In this document: one piece after another, positions 38,524 to 43,980 of the stretch
Layout of the letters: every line of letters starts with the position of its first letter
Numbering within the stretch: position 1 is the first letter of the stretch
DNA from: Tenggerimyces flavus
GTDB taxonomy: Bacteria > Actinomycetota > Actinomycetes > Propionibacteriales > Actinopolymorphaceae
Assembly (NCBI RefSeq): GCF_016907715.1
Contig: NZ_JAFBCM010000001.1
Span: forward strand, 5,332,001-5,396,000
Direction of reading: 5' to 3'
Length of the DNA stretch: 64,000 bases
The notes under the pieces: model-generated
The model's input: the letters and a program-made list of their open reading frames with translations, nothing else
Told to the model about the DNA's origin: nothing
Database searches by the model: none
Program-made: the position numbers and the translations under genes

Positions 38524-38695
38524 GATGGTTCGACCGGCTCGCCAGGCCGGTCGAGGCAAGAGGGAACCCCGTGCGAATCGGGGACTGCCCCGCAGCGGTG
38601 AGCGGGAACGAACGCCGTCACCATCCAGCGAGCCCCAATCGCTGGAGGGTCGAGCACTGGGTGTCACCACGAGCCTGGGAAGCGACGGCTATTAG
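38524..38695 (+). promoter_or_regulatory. Cobalamin (B12) riboswitch upstream of nrdA
   Basis: Clear cobalamin aptamer. The core is AGGGAACCCCGTGCGAATCG (38561-38580), then CTGCCCCGCAGCGGTGA (38585-38601), and the B12 box GCCTGGGAAGCGACGGCT (38673-38690). Expression stops when adenosylcobalamin is bound. The 223 bases from here to the nrdA GTG hold no gene. They carry a GC hairpin (38765-38772 with 38781-38788) and a CTCTCC (38856-38861) that can pair with the Shine-Dalgarno GGAGAG (38907-38912), so control of translation is a plausible expression platform. The stretch 38386-38523 upstream holds the divergent promoters; no clear -35/-10 pair could be fixed. Confidence 0.9.
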
Positions 38696-38918
38696 GCCAC
38701 CCCCGCCGACCTTCCCCCTCCGGTCGGTGGTCTGCCCGCGAGTCCGAAGACCTGCCATCGGTGTGCGCCCGCGAGGACAAGCGGGCGCGCAAGGTGCCGA
38801 GCCTCGCGGGAGGGCTCAGGGACGCGCAGCGCCGACCCCTCGGTCGGGCGCTGCCCTCTCCCCTGCCGCGAAGTCGAAGCCGCGAACGCCAGACCGCAGC
38901 TCGCGAGGAGAGAGTTCC

Positions 38919-41900
38919 GTGACCCAAGCACCACCAGCACCCACCCAGCAGGTCGTCCGCCGCGACGGCAGCACGTCGCCGTTCGACCCCAGCAAGATCT
39001 CGGTCGCCCTGACCAAGGCGTTCCTGGCGGTGGAGGGACGCCAGGCCGGTGACTCCAGCCGCGTCCACGAGACCGTACGAGAGCTCACGGCGTCGGTCGC
39101 CGCTTCCCTGACGAGGCACCAGAGCCGGACGTTCCACATCGAGGACATCCAGGACCAGGTCGAACTCGCGTTGATGCGCGACGGCCACCACCGGGTCGCT
39201 CGCGCGTACGTCCTGTACCGCGAGGAGCACGCCCGCGCACGGCTCGAGCGCGACGTCCCCGGTGAGTCCGAAGCCACGCCGCAGCTACAGGTCAAGCAGA
39301 TCGACGGCGAGCTTCGCCCGCTCGACACCGCCCGCCTCACGCGTCTCGTCGAGGACGCCTGCGCCGGGCTCGACGGAGCGAACGCCGAGGCGGTGCTCGC
39401 CGAGATCAGGCGCAACCTGTACGACGGCATGACGGTCGCGGAGCTCGAGGTCGCCCAGATCATGGCGGCCCGGACGTTCGTCGAGGCCGACTCCGACTAC
39501 GCGTTCGTCAGTGCCCGGCTGCTGCTGGACAAGCTGCGGCGCGAGGCGCTCACGTTCCTCGCCGACCGTCCCGACGAGGCGCGCCGCGAGGAGATGGCTT
39601 CGCGCTACCCGGCGTACTTCAAGTCGTATGTGCACCGCGCGATCGAGCTGGAGCTGCTCGACCCCGAGCTCGCCCGGTTCGACCTGGACCGGATCGGCAA
39701 GGCGCTCAAGCCCGAGCGCGACGAGCAGTTCCAGTTCCTCGGCCTGCAGACCCTGTACGACCGGTACTTCCAACACTCCGACGGCATCCGCTTCGAGCTG
39801 CCGCAGGCGTTCTTCATGCGCGTCGCGATGGGTGTCGCGATCCGCGAGATCGACCGCGAGGCACGCGCGATCGAGTTCTACGAGCTGCTCTCCTCGTTCG
39901 ACTTCATGCACTCCACGCCGACGCTGTTCAACGCGGGGACGACCAGGCCGCAGCTGTCGTCCTGCTTCCTCACCACGGTCGACGACGACCTCGACGGCAT
40001 CTTCCAGGGCATCAAGAACAACGCCCTGCTCGCGAAGTACTCCGGCGGACTCGGCAACGACTGGACGCCTGTGCGCGGCATGGGCGCCCACATCAAGGGC
40101 ACGAACGGCAAGTCCCAGGGCGTCGTCCCGTTCCTCAAGGTCGCGAACGACACCGCGGTGGCTGTCAATCAATGCTTTGCGCCAGCAACACCCGTCTACA
40201 CAGCAGATGGCGTCAAAGAGATCCAGGCCGTCGAGGTGGGCGACCTTGTTCTGGGAATCAGTGGAACGTACCGCGAGGTCACCCAGAAGTTCGTCTACGA
40301 CAACGTCGACATCACCGTCGACGTGAACGTCAAGCATGCGATCGACCCCGTGACGGTCACGGCAGGCCACCCGTTCTACGCCATCCAGGGGGTTCCGCTC
40401 GAACAAGACACCAAGCGCACCTACGCATCGCTGGCCAGCGGCAAGGTACGCCCCGACTGGGTAGCGGCCGGCAAGCTCTGCAAGGGCGACTATGTCGCCC
40501 AGGTCGTGCCGAAGGAAGTCGTTCCCGTCCCTGGCTTCACCGACGACGACGCGCGCCTCTACGGGGTCCTGCTGGGTGACGGACACCTGGCGAAGGACGG
40601 ACTCGAGTGGGGAGTGTGCGGAAACCCGCAGCGAGACGCCCATCTGTCGTTCGTCCGCGACTACCTCAATGCTCGCGGTATCCACTTCTGGGAAGCTCAC
40701 CGCGGCCACACCTTCGCCTCGATCAGATGGGCGTCGGGTGAGCCAACGCTTCCCTTGACGGGCGACGATCTCTACGACGAGCATGGCGACAAGCGCATCT
40801 CCCGACGCTTCTCGCACCTGCCGCATGCTCAGACCCGTGCGCTCCTGCGCGGCCTGCTCGAGACAGACGGGGGTGTGTCGCGCGGCGTAGAGATCTCCTT
40901 CACCTCCACTTCGAGGCCGCTCACCGCCGGCCTCCGGTACCAGCTGCTGCGTCTGGGGATCCCTACCGCCGGCCAGTATCGAGTACGGGACACGAGCCAT
41001 GTGGGTCATCGCTCCGACGGGTCCGAGATCACGTTCAGTGGAGTGACCAAGGCGTTCGACGTCCGAGTCCCCGCGGTCCCGGAGATCGCCGAGCTCGTCG
41101 GCGCTCGGCCGATCCACAAGAAGAACTGGCTCGAGCACCGCGGCATGCTCTTCACGAGGGTTCGCGACGTGCACGAGACCGAGATCGCACCCACGGTCTT
41201 CGACCTCGAGGTCGAGGGCGACGAGTCCTACATGACCGTCGCGGGGCTCGCTCACAACGGCGGGCGCCGTAAGGGGGCGGCGTGCGCGTATCTCGAGACG
41301 TGGCACATCGACATCGAGGAGTTCCTCGATCTGCGGAAGAACACCGGGGACGATCGGCGCCGGACGCATGACATGAACACCGCGAACTGGGTGCCCGACC
41401 TGTTCATCCAGCGGGTCGAGGCGGACGGGCCGTGGACACTGTTCTCCCCCAACGAGGTGCCGGAGCTGCACGACCTCTACGGAACGGCTTTCGCCAAGCG
41501 GTACGAGGAGTACGAGGCGGCGGCTGAACGCGGCGAGCTCAAGGTGCACCGCCGCATGCGTGCGGTCGAGCTGTGGCGCCGGATGCTGTCGATGGTGTTC
41601 GAGACCGGGCACCCGTGGATCACGTTCAAGGACCCGTGCAACCTGCGCTCGCCGCAGCAGCACTCCGGCGTGGTGCATTCGTCCAACCTGTGCACGGAGA
41701 TCACGCTCAACACGACGGTCGACGAGGTCGCGGTCTGCAACCTCGGCTCGGTCAACCTGCTCAACCACGTGCGGGACGGTAAGCTCGACAAGGAGCACCT
41801 CGCGCGGACCGTGCGCGCCGCCGTTCGCGCGCTGGACAACGTGATCGACGTGAACTTCTACACGATCCCGGAGGCACGACGCTCCAACCTCAAGCACCGG

Positions 41901-42890
41901 CCGGTCGGGCTCGGGCTGATGGGCTTCCAGGATGCTCTGTTCGCGCTGCGGATCCCGCTGTCGTCGCAGCAGGCGGTGGAGTTCGCCGACGAGTCGATGG
42001 AGGTGATCTCGTACCACGCGATCGCGGCGTCGTCGGAGCTCGCGGCCGAGCGCGGTTCGTACGCCTCGTTCCCCGGATCCCTGTGGAGCAAGGGGATTCT
42101 GCCGATCGACTCCGTGGCGCTGGTCTCCGAGGCACGTGGCGGCGACGTCCTGATGGACACCTCGTCGACGCTGGACTGGGCGACGTTGCGCGAGCAGGTC
42201 AAGACCGTCGGCATGCGCAACTCCAACGTGATGGCGATCGCGCCGACCGCCACGATCTCCAACATCTGTGGCGTCGGGCAGTCGATCGAGCCGCTGTACC
42301 GCAACCTGTACGTGAAGTCGAACATGTCCGGCGACTTCACTGTCGTCAACCCGCACCTCGTGCGCGACCTCAAGGAGCGCGAGCTGTGGGACGAGGTCAT
42401 GGTGAGCGACCTCAAGTACTACGACGGCAGCCTCGGCCCGATCGACCGGGTGCCGGACGACCTGAAGGACTTGTATGCGACGGCGTTCGAGATCGACTCG
42501 AGCTGGCTGGTCGACGCGGCGTCGCGCCGGCAGAAGTGGATCGACCAGGCGCAGTCGCTGAACCTGTACGTCGCGGCGCCGAACGGGCGCAAGCTGGACG
42601 AGCTGTACCGGCACGCGTGGCGGAGCGGGCTCAAGACCACGTACTACCTGCGTTCGCAATCGGCAACGCACGTGGAGAAGTCGACGATCAAGGGCACCGA
42701 CGGGAAGCTGAACGCGGTCTCGCCGGTGATCCCCGTTCCAGCGGCTGCTCCGGCACCGGTGCCCACGCCGGCGGCGACCGTTCCCGCCGTGCCGGTGCCG
42801 GCCACCGTGCCTACCGTCGACATCGAGCTGCCGGACAGCGATGCCGCGTTCTGCTCGATCGACGACCCCGACTGCGAAGCCTGCCAGTAG
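38919..42890 (+). CDS. nrdA: Class I ribonucleotide reductase large subunit containing an intein
   Basis: Precursor of 1323 residues; removal of the intein (419-780) gives a 961-residue subunit. It reduces ribonucleotides to deoxyribonucleotides with NrdB. Two ATP-cone-like allosteric domains occupy residues about 1-200. Active-site residues are present: [14 protein letters not shown] (first cysteine), SNLCTEI (radical Cys and Glu), VCNLGSVNL (second cysteine) and the C-terminal DCEACQ redox pair. The GTG at 38919 has GAGGAG eight bases upstream. The double ATP cone resembles Chlamydia-type class Ic enzymes. A B12 riboswitch precedes the gene, so this O2-dependent enzyme is probably made when B12 (and hence a B12-dependent reductase elsewhere) is lacking. 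Confidence 0.93.
40173..41258 (+). other. Intein in NrdA with LAGLIDADG endonuclease domain and Gly at +1
   Basis: Insert of 362 residues between AVNQ and GGRRKGAA, a point that is contiguous in intein-free NrdA (compare SQGGVRGGAA in E. coli). Block A begins [13 protein letters not shown] with Cys1. Block B is [10 protein letters not shown] (TxxH). Two dodecapeptide motifs, [11 protein letters not shown] and [11 protein letters not shown], mark a homing endonuclease. The end is [21 protein letters not shown] in two parts: block F without its usual His, and block G with penultimate His and final Asn. The first C-extein residue is Gly, not Cys/Ser/Thr. The insert's base use is visibly less GC-rich than flanking nrdA, a sign of transfer. 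Confidence 0.9.
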
Positions 42891-42897
42891 AAAGTTC

Positions 42898-43980
42898 ATG
42901 GACATGACCGATACGCAATCCAGCATTGACACCACCGGGCTCGGTGAGATCGAGCGCGGCGCGGGCCGCATCAGCGTCGACGACAAGGCGATGATCAACG
43001 CTCGCGCCGACGTCAACCAACTCCTGCCGCTGAAGTACCGCTGGGCTTGGGAGAAGTACCTCGCCGGCTGCAACAACCACTGGATGCCGACGGAGGTCTC
43101 GATGCAGGCCGACGTCGCGCTGTGGAAGTCGCCGACCGGGCTCACCGACGACGAGCGCCTGATGATCAAGCGCAACCTCGGCTTCTTCGCGACGTCGGAG
43201 TCGCTGGTCGCGAACAACATCGTGCTCGCCGTCTACCGGCACCTCACCAACCCCGAGTGCCGGCAGTACCTGCTGCGGCAGGCCTTCGAGGAAGCCGTCC
43301 ACACGCACACGTTCCAGTACATCTGCGAGAGCCTCGGCCTGGATGAGGGCGAGCTGTTCAACATGTACCGCGAGGTGCCGTCGATCACCGACAAGGCCGC
43401 GTGGGCGCTGGACTACACCCAGCACCTGGAGGACCCGGACTTCTCGACCGGCACGCCGGAACGGGACCAGGCGTTCCTGCGCGACCTGGTGGCGTTCTAC
43501 GTGATCTTCGAGGGGATGTGGTTCTACACCGGCTTCGCGCAGATCCTGTCGCTCGGCCGGCGGAACAAGATGGTGGGGATCGCCGAGCAGTACCAGTACA
43601 TCCTGCGCGACGAGTCGATCCACCTGAACTTCGGCATCGACGCGATCAACCAGATCAAGCTGGAGAACCCGCACCTGTGGACGCCGGAGTTCCAGGCCGA
43701 GCTGCGGCGGATGCTGACCGAGGCGTGCGAGCTGGAGATCGCGTACGCGCGGGACACGATGCCCCGCGGCGTGCTCGGCCTGAACGCCGAGGTGTGCACG
43801 CAGTACATGCACTTCATCACGAACAGGCGGTGCGCGCAGATCGGGCTCGCTCCGGTCTTCGGCGAGACCGAGAACCCATTCCCGTGGATGTCGGAGCTGA
43901 TGGACCTCGGCAAGGAGAAGAACTTCTTCGAGACCCGCGTGATCGAGTACCAGAGCGGTGGCGCCCTGACCTGGGACTGA
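42898..43980 (+). CDS. nrdB: Class I ribonucleotide reductase small subunit, class Ic-like
   Basis: Radical-cofactor subunit of 360 residues, seven bases after nrdA. Metal ligands: Glu66 (MPTEVSMQ), Glu132 and His135 (EEAVHTHTF), Glu205 (VIFEGMW), Glu239 and His242 ([10 protein letters not shown]). The position of the radical tyrosine (Tyr122 in E. coli, four residues after the metal His) is Phe139, and the first metal ligand is Glu instead of Asp. Both are hallmarks of class Ic enzymes such as that of Chlamydia, which use a Mn/Fe centre in place of a tyrosyl radical. Alternative ATG at 42904. Confidence 0.92.

Follow-up and report, generated by a model that had tools for sequence, protein, structure and literature searches.

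A widespread family of NrdA inteins followed by glycine at the +1 position

An intein interrupts the class I NrdA of Tenggerimyces flavus

The window analysed here, a stretch of 64,000 nucleotides from the actinobacterium Tenggerimyces flavus, carries a class I ribonucleotide reductase locus in which an in-frame LAGLIDADG intein of 362 residues (40173-41258, + strand) lies in NrdA between a glutamine and a pair of glycines. The features of the locus, in window coordinates, are as follows:

38883..40172, + strand: NrdA N-extein (the part translated), covering ATP cones, the all-alpha domain and the beginning of the barrel; last residues ...VAVNQ
40173..41258, + strand: intein, Cys1 to His361-Asn362 (from the sequence and from homologues at the same site)
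40359..40370, + strand: block B TAGH with Thr63 and His66 (sequence; family conservation)
40560..40589, + strand: 10-residue stretch that we take to be LAGLIDADG motif 1 (sequence; fold match to LAGLIDADG inteins and I-DmoI)
40845..40874, + strand: 10-residue stretch that we take to be LAGLIDADG motif 2 (Pfam LAGLIDADG_3 at residues 220-270)
41202..41258, + strand: blocks F and G with Asp344 (F:4), Glu351 in place of His, Tyr353, Thr355 and the terminal His-Asn
41259..41261, + strand: +1 residue Gly (GGC), counterpart of E. coli NrdA Gly295
41259..42890, + strand: NrdA C-extein
43015..43878, + strand: NrdB (R2 subunit), PF00268 match in ORF 42841-43980, directly downstream of NrdA

The reading frame (ORF 38571-42890, + strand) is open throughout, with no frame break across the intein, and the remainder of it encodes the ATP cone, helical domain and barrel of a class I NrdA (Pfam). 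On the N-terminal side, CAA (Gln, 40170-40172) is followed by TGC for Cys1 (40173-40175); on the C-terminal side, CAC AAC (His-Asn, 41253-41258) is followed by GGC for Gly+1 and then by GGG CGC CGT AAG. Block B occupies intein residues 63-66, the block F aspartate (in DLEV) is residue 344, and the usual place of the block F histidine is taken by Glu351 (...EGDESY...). The original prediction, made from the window alone, of an NrdA intein with Cys1, a TxxH block B and a terminal His-Asn that is followed by glycine and is devoid of the block F histidine holds at exact coordinates.

Pfam LAGLIDADG_3 matches residues 220-270 with 35.2 bits (cut-off 22.5), and the Hint models of Pfam give matches below cut-off. 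A search of PDB sequences with the intein yielded weak matches, the best with an E value of 0.2. An AlphaFold2 model of the insert and its flanks (70-row alignment; pLDDT 89.8, pTM 0.88) resembles over its whole length the LAGLIDADG intein TliVMA (7qsu; Z 29.5, r.m.s.d. 3.3, 311 residues), and its splicing part resembles HINT domains, with Mtu RecA (3ifj; Z 17.7) and the bacterial intein-like (BIL) domain CthBIL (2lwy; Z 17.2, r.m.s.d. 1.6, 129 residues) tied.

The insertion splits specificity loop 2

The insertion site can be read from intein-free reductases. Pseudomonas aeruginosa NrdA (PDB 5im3) runs across it at Q442/G443 with no residue missing (a slash marks the junction throughout), E. 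coli K-12 NrdA has it at Q294/G295, and human RRM1 (3hnc) reads Q288/GGNKRPGA in a loop that is longer by one residue. The two bacterial proteins confirm the predicted insertion between Q and GG, and the predicted active-site loop turns out to be specificity loop 2 of the E. coli enzyme. In loop 2 of class I reductases, Cys292 touches the effector, and Arg298, Gly299 and Ala301 touch the substrate (PMC8772380); the intein is placed within this loop because Q294/G295 falls between C292 and R298. Since the restored NrdA must read Q-G-G, Gly+1 is demanded by the host sequence.

An alternative boundary that would supply a nucleophile was looked for and can be dismissed: the flanking residues differ at the two junctions (Q and N before them, C and G after them), and only a boundary at Q/GG restores the intein-free NrdA product. 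That the +1 glycine codon stems from a sequencing error is very unlikely, given that glycine is also found in G187, a genome identified by a protein search free of any junction pattern, and at 21/21 loci with a readable C-junction in a search on the N-side junction only (below). Among 394 sampled genomes of the class, 91 have an empty site (VNQGG) and two, the window genome and G187, a filled one (HNGG); the ten empty-site loci that were looked at apparently belong to another NrdA subfamily.

Glycine at +1 is shared by a same-site family

Whether relatives have the +1 glycine, a check proposed with the original prediction, could be answered in the affirmative. The protein search of the 394 genomes returned one further full-length match, together with partial matches in 40 other genomes; this is the intein of G187, a genome of another family, which is 70% identical, occupies the same site and ends in AHN/GGKRKG. 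Because tblastn with the window intein gave no match in genome_contigs, relatives in that collection were sought with the junction pattern HNGG[KR]RKGAxCA, which yielded at least 111 stretches and a further three on viral contigs, each continuing into an NrdA C-extein. Titles for 80 of the at least 111 point mostly to Gammaproteobacteria and Burkholderiales, and also to Chlamydiae, Verrucomicrobia, Actinobacteria and one Acidobacteria bacterium. Seventeen of the 114 pattern loci (L034-L147) end before the N-junction and were dropped, which left an aligned set of 99 complete inteins: those of the window and G187, 95 of the 111 genome loci and two of the three viral ones. The pattern imposes His-Asn/Gly-Gly and the parser imposes Gln/Cys, so that the occurrence of Cys1, His361, Asn362 and Gly+1 in 99/99 is not an independent observation.

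A search with the N-side junction only, over 63 genomes of the order of Thiothrix lacustris, found the intein in 22. The C-junction was readable at 21 of these 22 loci (20 by script and L190 by eye; L186 was unreadable), and all 21 have Gly+1, in 20 cases after His-Asn and in L190 after Ser-Asn; at least six genomes (G403, G411, G414, G419, G422 and G423) are common to this search and the pattern search. In viral_contigs the N-side pattern gave 18 matches, four of them in NrdA, where 3/3 readable C-junctions have glycine; the other 14 stand outside any NrdA context and were taken as chance. The Gly+1 NrdA intein is therefore a widespread family and not a peculiarity of the window genome.

The family has the marks of a mobile homing intein, namely a LAGLIDADG domain, the same site in distant hosts and empty sites in relatives, and the endonuclease of the window intein is presumably active. 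Trees of inteins and exteins (45 tips) have 13/42 splits in common, and in either tree the six tips labelled as Actinobacteria group together as a single clade, so that nearby transfer and descent are not separable there. On one viral contig (L175), an NrdA intein at the same site has a divergent C-terminus (GGLVHN/GGKRRGAGCGYLETWH). All inteins found in the phage and plasmid collections are distant (22-29% identity); the sole full-length relatives there, at 23-24% identity, are in phage Nyseid (MG765276, 33232-34167) and on a Euzebya pacifica plasmid (NZ_CP031166, 96797-97867), in both cases inside DNA cytosine methyltransferase genes.

First-step residues are conserved and the block F histidine is mostly lost

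With no side-chain nucleophile at +1, standard transesterification is impossible. The residues that would serve the first step of splicing are nevertheless retained by the family (Thr63, His66 and Asp344 at F:4, each in 98/99), and the position of the block F histidine is held by Glu in 83 of the 99 inteins and by His in two. L190, the single relative read with a Ser-Asn C-terminus, has the block F histidine (EGDHSY), as if in this one case the penultimate and the block F histidine were interchangeable. Tyr353 (99/99) and Thr355 (98/99) are as conserved as the catalytic residues, and we know of no role for either.

Such conservation would fit splicing with ligation by way of an additional, class-3-like branch, in which an internal side chain (that of Tyr353 or Thr355, for example) accepts the acyl group and hands it on to the glycine amine; internal acceptors are known from class 3 inteins (PMC4031507). 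F:4 is Asp in 98/99 rather than the Cys of class 3, however, and the conservation of Tyr353 and Thr355 may be structural, and we consider an internal acceptor unlikely compared with the direct, branch-free ligation proposed below.

Other inteins provide a control. Four NrdAs with the Gly+1 intein contain a second intein of about 365 residues in the C-extein, the part covered by this search: in L041, L065 and L089 it follows C-extein residue 145 (NLC/C...KN/TEI, +1 Thr), and in L092 residue 159 (AEIAV/C...HN/CNLG, +1 Cys). The block F histidine is kept in 4/4 of these second inteins. Among other inteins of the class, the +1 residue is Ser in eight and Thr in one (9 of 28 loci readable); an extra His-Asn before Met in L006 was taken as chance.

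In many carriers no other reductase was found

Fifty intein-bearing genomes were picked, non-randomly, from the 80 named records so as to include isolates and a range of phyla. NrdA with the intein is the only PF02867 gene in 29/50, and another PF02867 gene is present in 21/50; class III NrdD is absent from 24 of the 29 and present in five. Of the 24 genomes without a further class I, II or III reductase in these searches, five are isolates (Thiolinea disciformis, Thiothrix lacustris, T. eikelboomii, T. caldifontis and Thiofilum flexile) and 19 are MAGs, among them 11 of Chlamydiae; the MAGs are of unstated completeness, and drafts can miss genes. In two of these MAGs (G437 and G439), NrdA is split over contigs or frames. 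It is unlikely that a gap common to five isolates and 11 Chlamydiae stems from missed draft genes. In 17 of the 24, no monomeric class II enzyme was found above cut-off, and NrdB is present in 17/17 of the sole-reductase genomes examined, with partial or split matches in three. RTPR matches below cut-off, seen in 16/19 genomes, fall on NrdA and, in the window genome and G187, also on the second reductase.

The dN/dS of the intein has a median of 0.22 (range 0.07-0.92; 134 equal-length pairs with dS 0.05-1), compared with 0.16 for the nearby extein, which argues that the insert is maintained. As 24 of the 50 carrier genomes show no other reductase, it is very probable that inteins of the Gly+1 family excise and leave an active NrdA; the sole-reductase hosts most likely obtain their active NrdA from the intein-bearing gene. 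A dead intein as the explanation for the whole family is refuted by the intact frames, the dN/dS values and the sole-reductase genomes.

A working enzyme might also arise if the intein were cleaved at both ends and the NrdA halves reassembled without a peptide bond. BIL domains give mostly cleavage products (PMC4031507), a functional reductase encoded in pieces has been published, and the nrdA of phage Aeh1 consists of two coding pieces. In the present family, by contrast, the break would lie inside loop 2, between the effector-contacting C292 and the substrate-contacting R298 (E. coli numbering), and the 24 sole-reductase genomes would rest all dNTP synthesis on a nicked loop; the block B and block F:4 residues, moreover, are each kept in 98/99. 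Reassembly of unligated halves thus appears improbable beside excision with ligation.

The need for splicing is argued here from relatives, not from the window organism or its actinobacterial lineage. The argument is weaker for the window organism, because its genome has an intact, intein-free class II NrdJ (C1:3940218-3941825; L002); NrdD was not found in this genome. All ten Actinobacteria among the 50 carrier genomes (10/10) likewise have a second PF02867 gene. The window copy could on these grounds be a decayed, poorly splicing intein that is tolerated since NrdJ supplies dNTPs, and it does depart from the family at 4/98 positions with at least 90% conservation (44, 48, 132 and 195). Yet this copy has an unbroken frame and retains Cys1, block B, the Asp of block F, Tyr353, Thr355 and His-Asn, the extein is 80.5-84.1% identical to those of the hosts of the five closest inteins, and NrdB is intact downstream, which together make decay very improbable. 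For the window segment, too, self-removal by an unusual route is probably the case.

A proposed branch-free route to ligation

We propose that a mobile LAGLIDADG intein colonised the Q/GG site in loop 2 of NrdA, and that it is excised with ligation despite Gly+1 by a branch-free route, a reading to which we give a probability of about 0.6. We infer ligation and four chemical steps. Cys1 would form the N-terminal thioester, aided by the block B Thr and His and the block F Asp; side-chain transesterification would be absent; cyclization of Asn362, aided by His361, would release the alpha-amine of Gly+1; and this unhindered amine, kept in the active site, would attack the Cys1 thioester to form the Gln-Gly bond directly. 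The original prediction had left a choice between a branch-free route, poor splicing and cleavage; as the sole-reductase genomes argue for an excision that restores the enzyme, they favour the first of these, which is not proved thereby.

Its expectation of unusual chemistry has to be qualified by a precedent, since for A-type BIL domains splicing by attack of an amine on the N-terminal thioester has been proposed (PMC4031507). For BIL2 of Tetrahymena, a joining reaction with a Lys amine has been described (PMC8616854), and sortases hand a thioester to oligoglycine (PMC5458133). Glycine would offer the least hindered amine, and the likeness to sortases is our own comparison. BIL domains also mark the weak point of a branch-free route: BILs without a +1 nucleophile mostly cleave (PMC4031507), one review regards A-type BILs as unable to ligate (PMC7765530), and a Magnetospirillum BIL spliced only once its +1 residue had been made Cys (PMC4031507); here, by contrast, an important enzyme apparently relies on the product.

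A further-reaching view, which we advance tentatively and rate a little short of even, is that the family constitutes a separate natural mechanistic class: mobile inteins that splice efficiently without a branched intermediate by means of the backbone amine of an unvarying Gly+1, with the block F histidine rewired to time Asn cyclization, and through which Thiothrix-like bacteria make all their DNA precursors.

Inteins are stated to insert before Cys, Ser or Thr (PMC2814812). If the proposal is true, peptide ligation by a HINT domain works well enough for life without a side-chain nucleophile; its significance would rest on a large, conserved Gly+1 family in a gene with which some hosts apparently cannot dispense. 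Proteins could then be ligated at Gly junctions without a scar, and the branch-free mechanism becomes testable in cultured carriers.

Relation to known inteins and intein-like domains

The window intein shares with class 1 inteins Cys1, the block B TxxH (Thr63, His66) and a C-terminal Asn with penultimate His (His361-Asn362), but at +1, where class 1 requires Cys, Ser or Thr, it has Gly, as do all the relatives read. Its resemblance to the class 1 LAGLIDADG inteins TliVMA, PI-SceI and Mtu RecA extends to the whole-length fold and the block F Asp; unlike these, the family has lost the block F histidine in 97/99. With A-type BIL domains it has in common the terminal His-Asn, the lack of a +1 nucleophile and the proposed amine-on-thioester ligation. 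BILs, however, occupy variable regions of non-conserved proteins (PMC7765530), whereas the window intein carries a LAGLIDADG domain, interrupts an active-site loop in a conserved enzyme, and belongs to a family whose product is seemingly needed in some hosts. It therefore fully fits neither the class 1 definition, for want of a +1 nucleophile, nor that of BILs, on account of its place in the host protein. Class 2 chemistry requires Ala1 and Cys+1 and is excluded by Cys1 and Gly+1; class 3 (WCT) chemistry requires Cys at F:4 and no Cys1 or Ser1, and is excluded by Asp at F:4 (98/99) and by Cys1 in the window.

In the open-access literature, to which our search was confined, we met no description of a Gly+1 NrdA intein or of its splicing. 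An intein in an aerobic class I reductase of Thiomargarita is in print (PMC4853749). The A. chroococcum NrdA intein has been placed at aas 442-800 and noted as conserved in A. vinelandii, in a paper whose available text has nothing on the +1 residue or on splicing (PMC4465626). These Azotobacter inteins (Avin_33290 and Achr_15980) are of the same family and at the same site as that of the window, and A. vinelandii CA is locus L087 of our set. InBase lists an A. vinelandii RIR1 'BIL', and its curators may have noticed the missing nucleophile.
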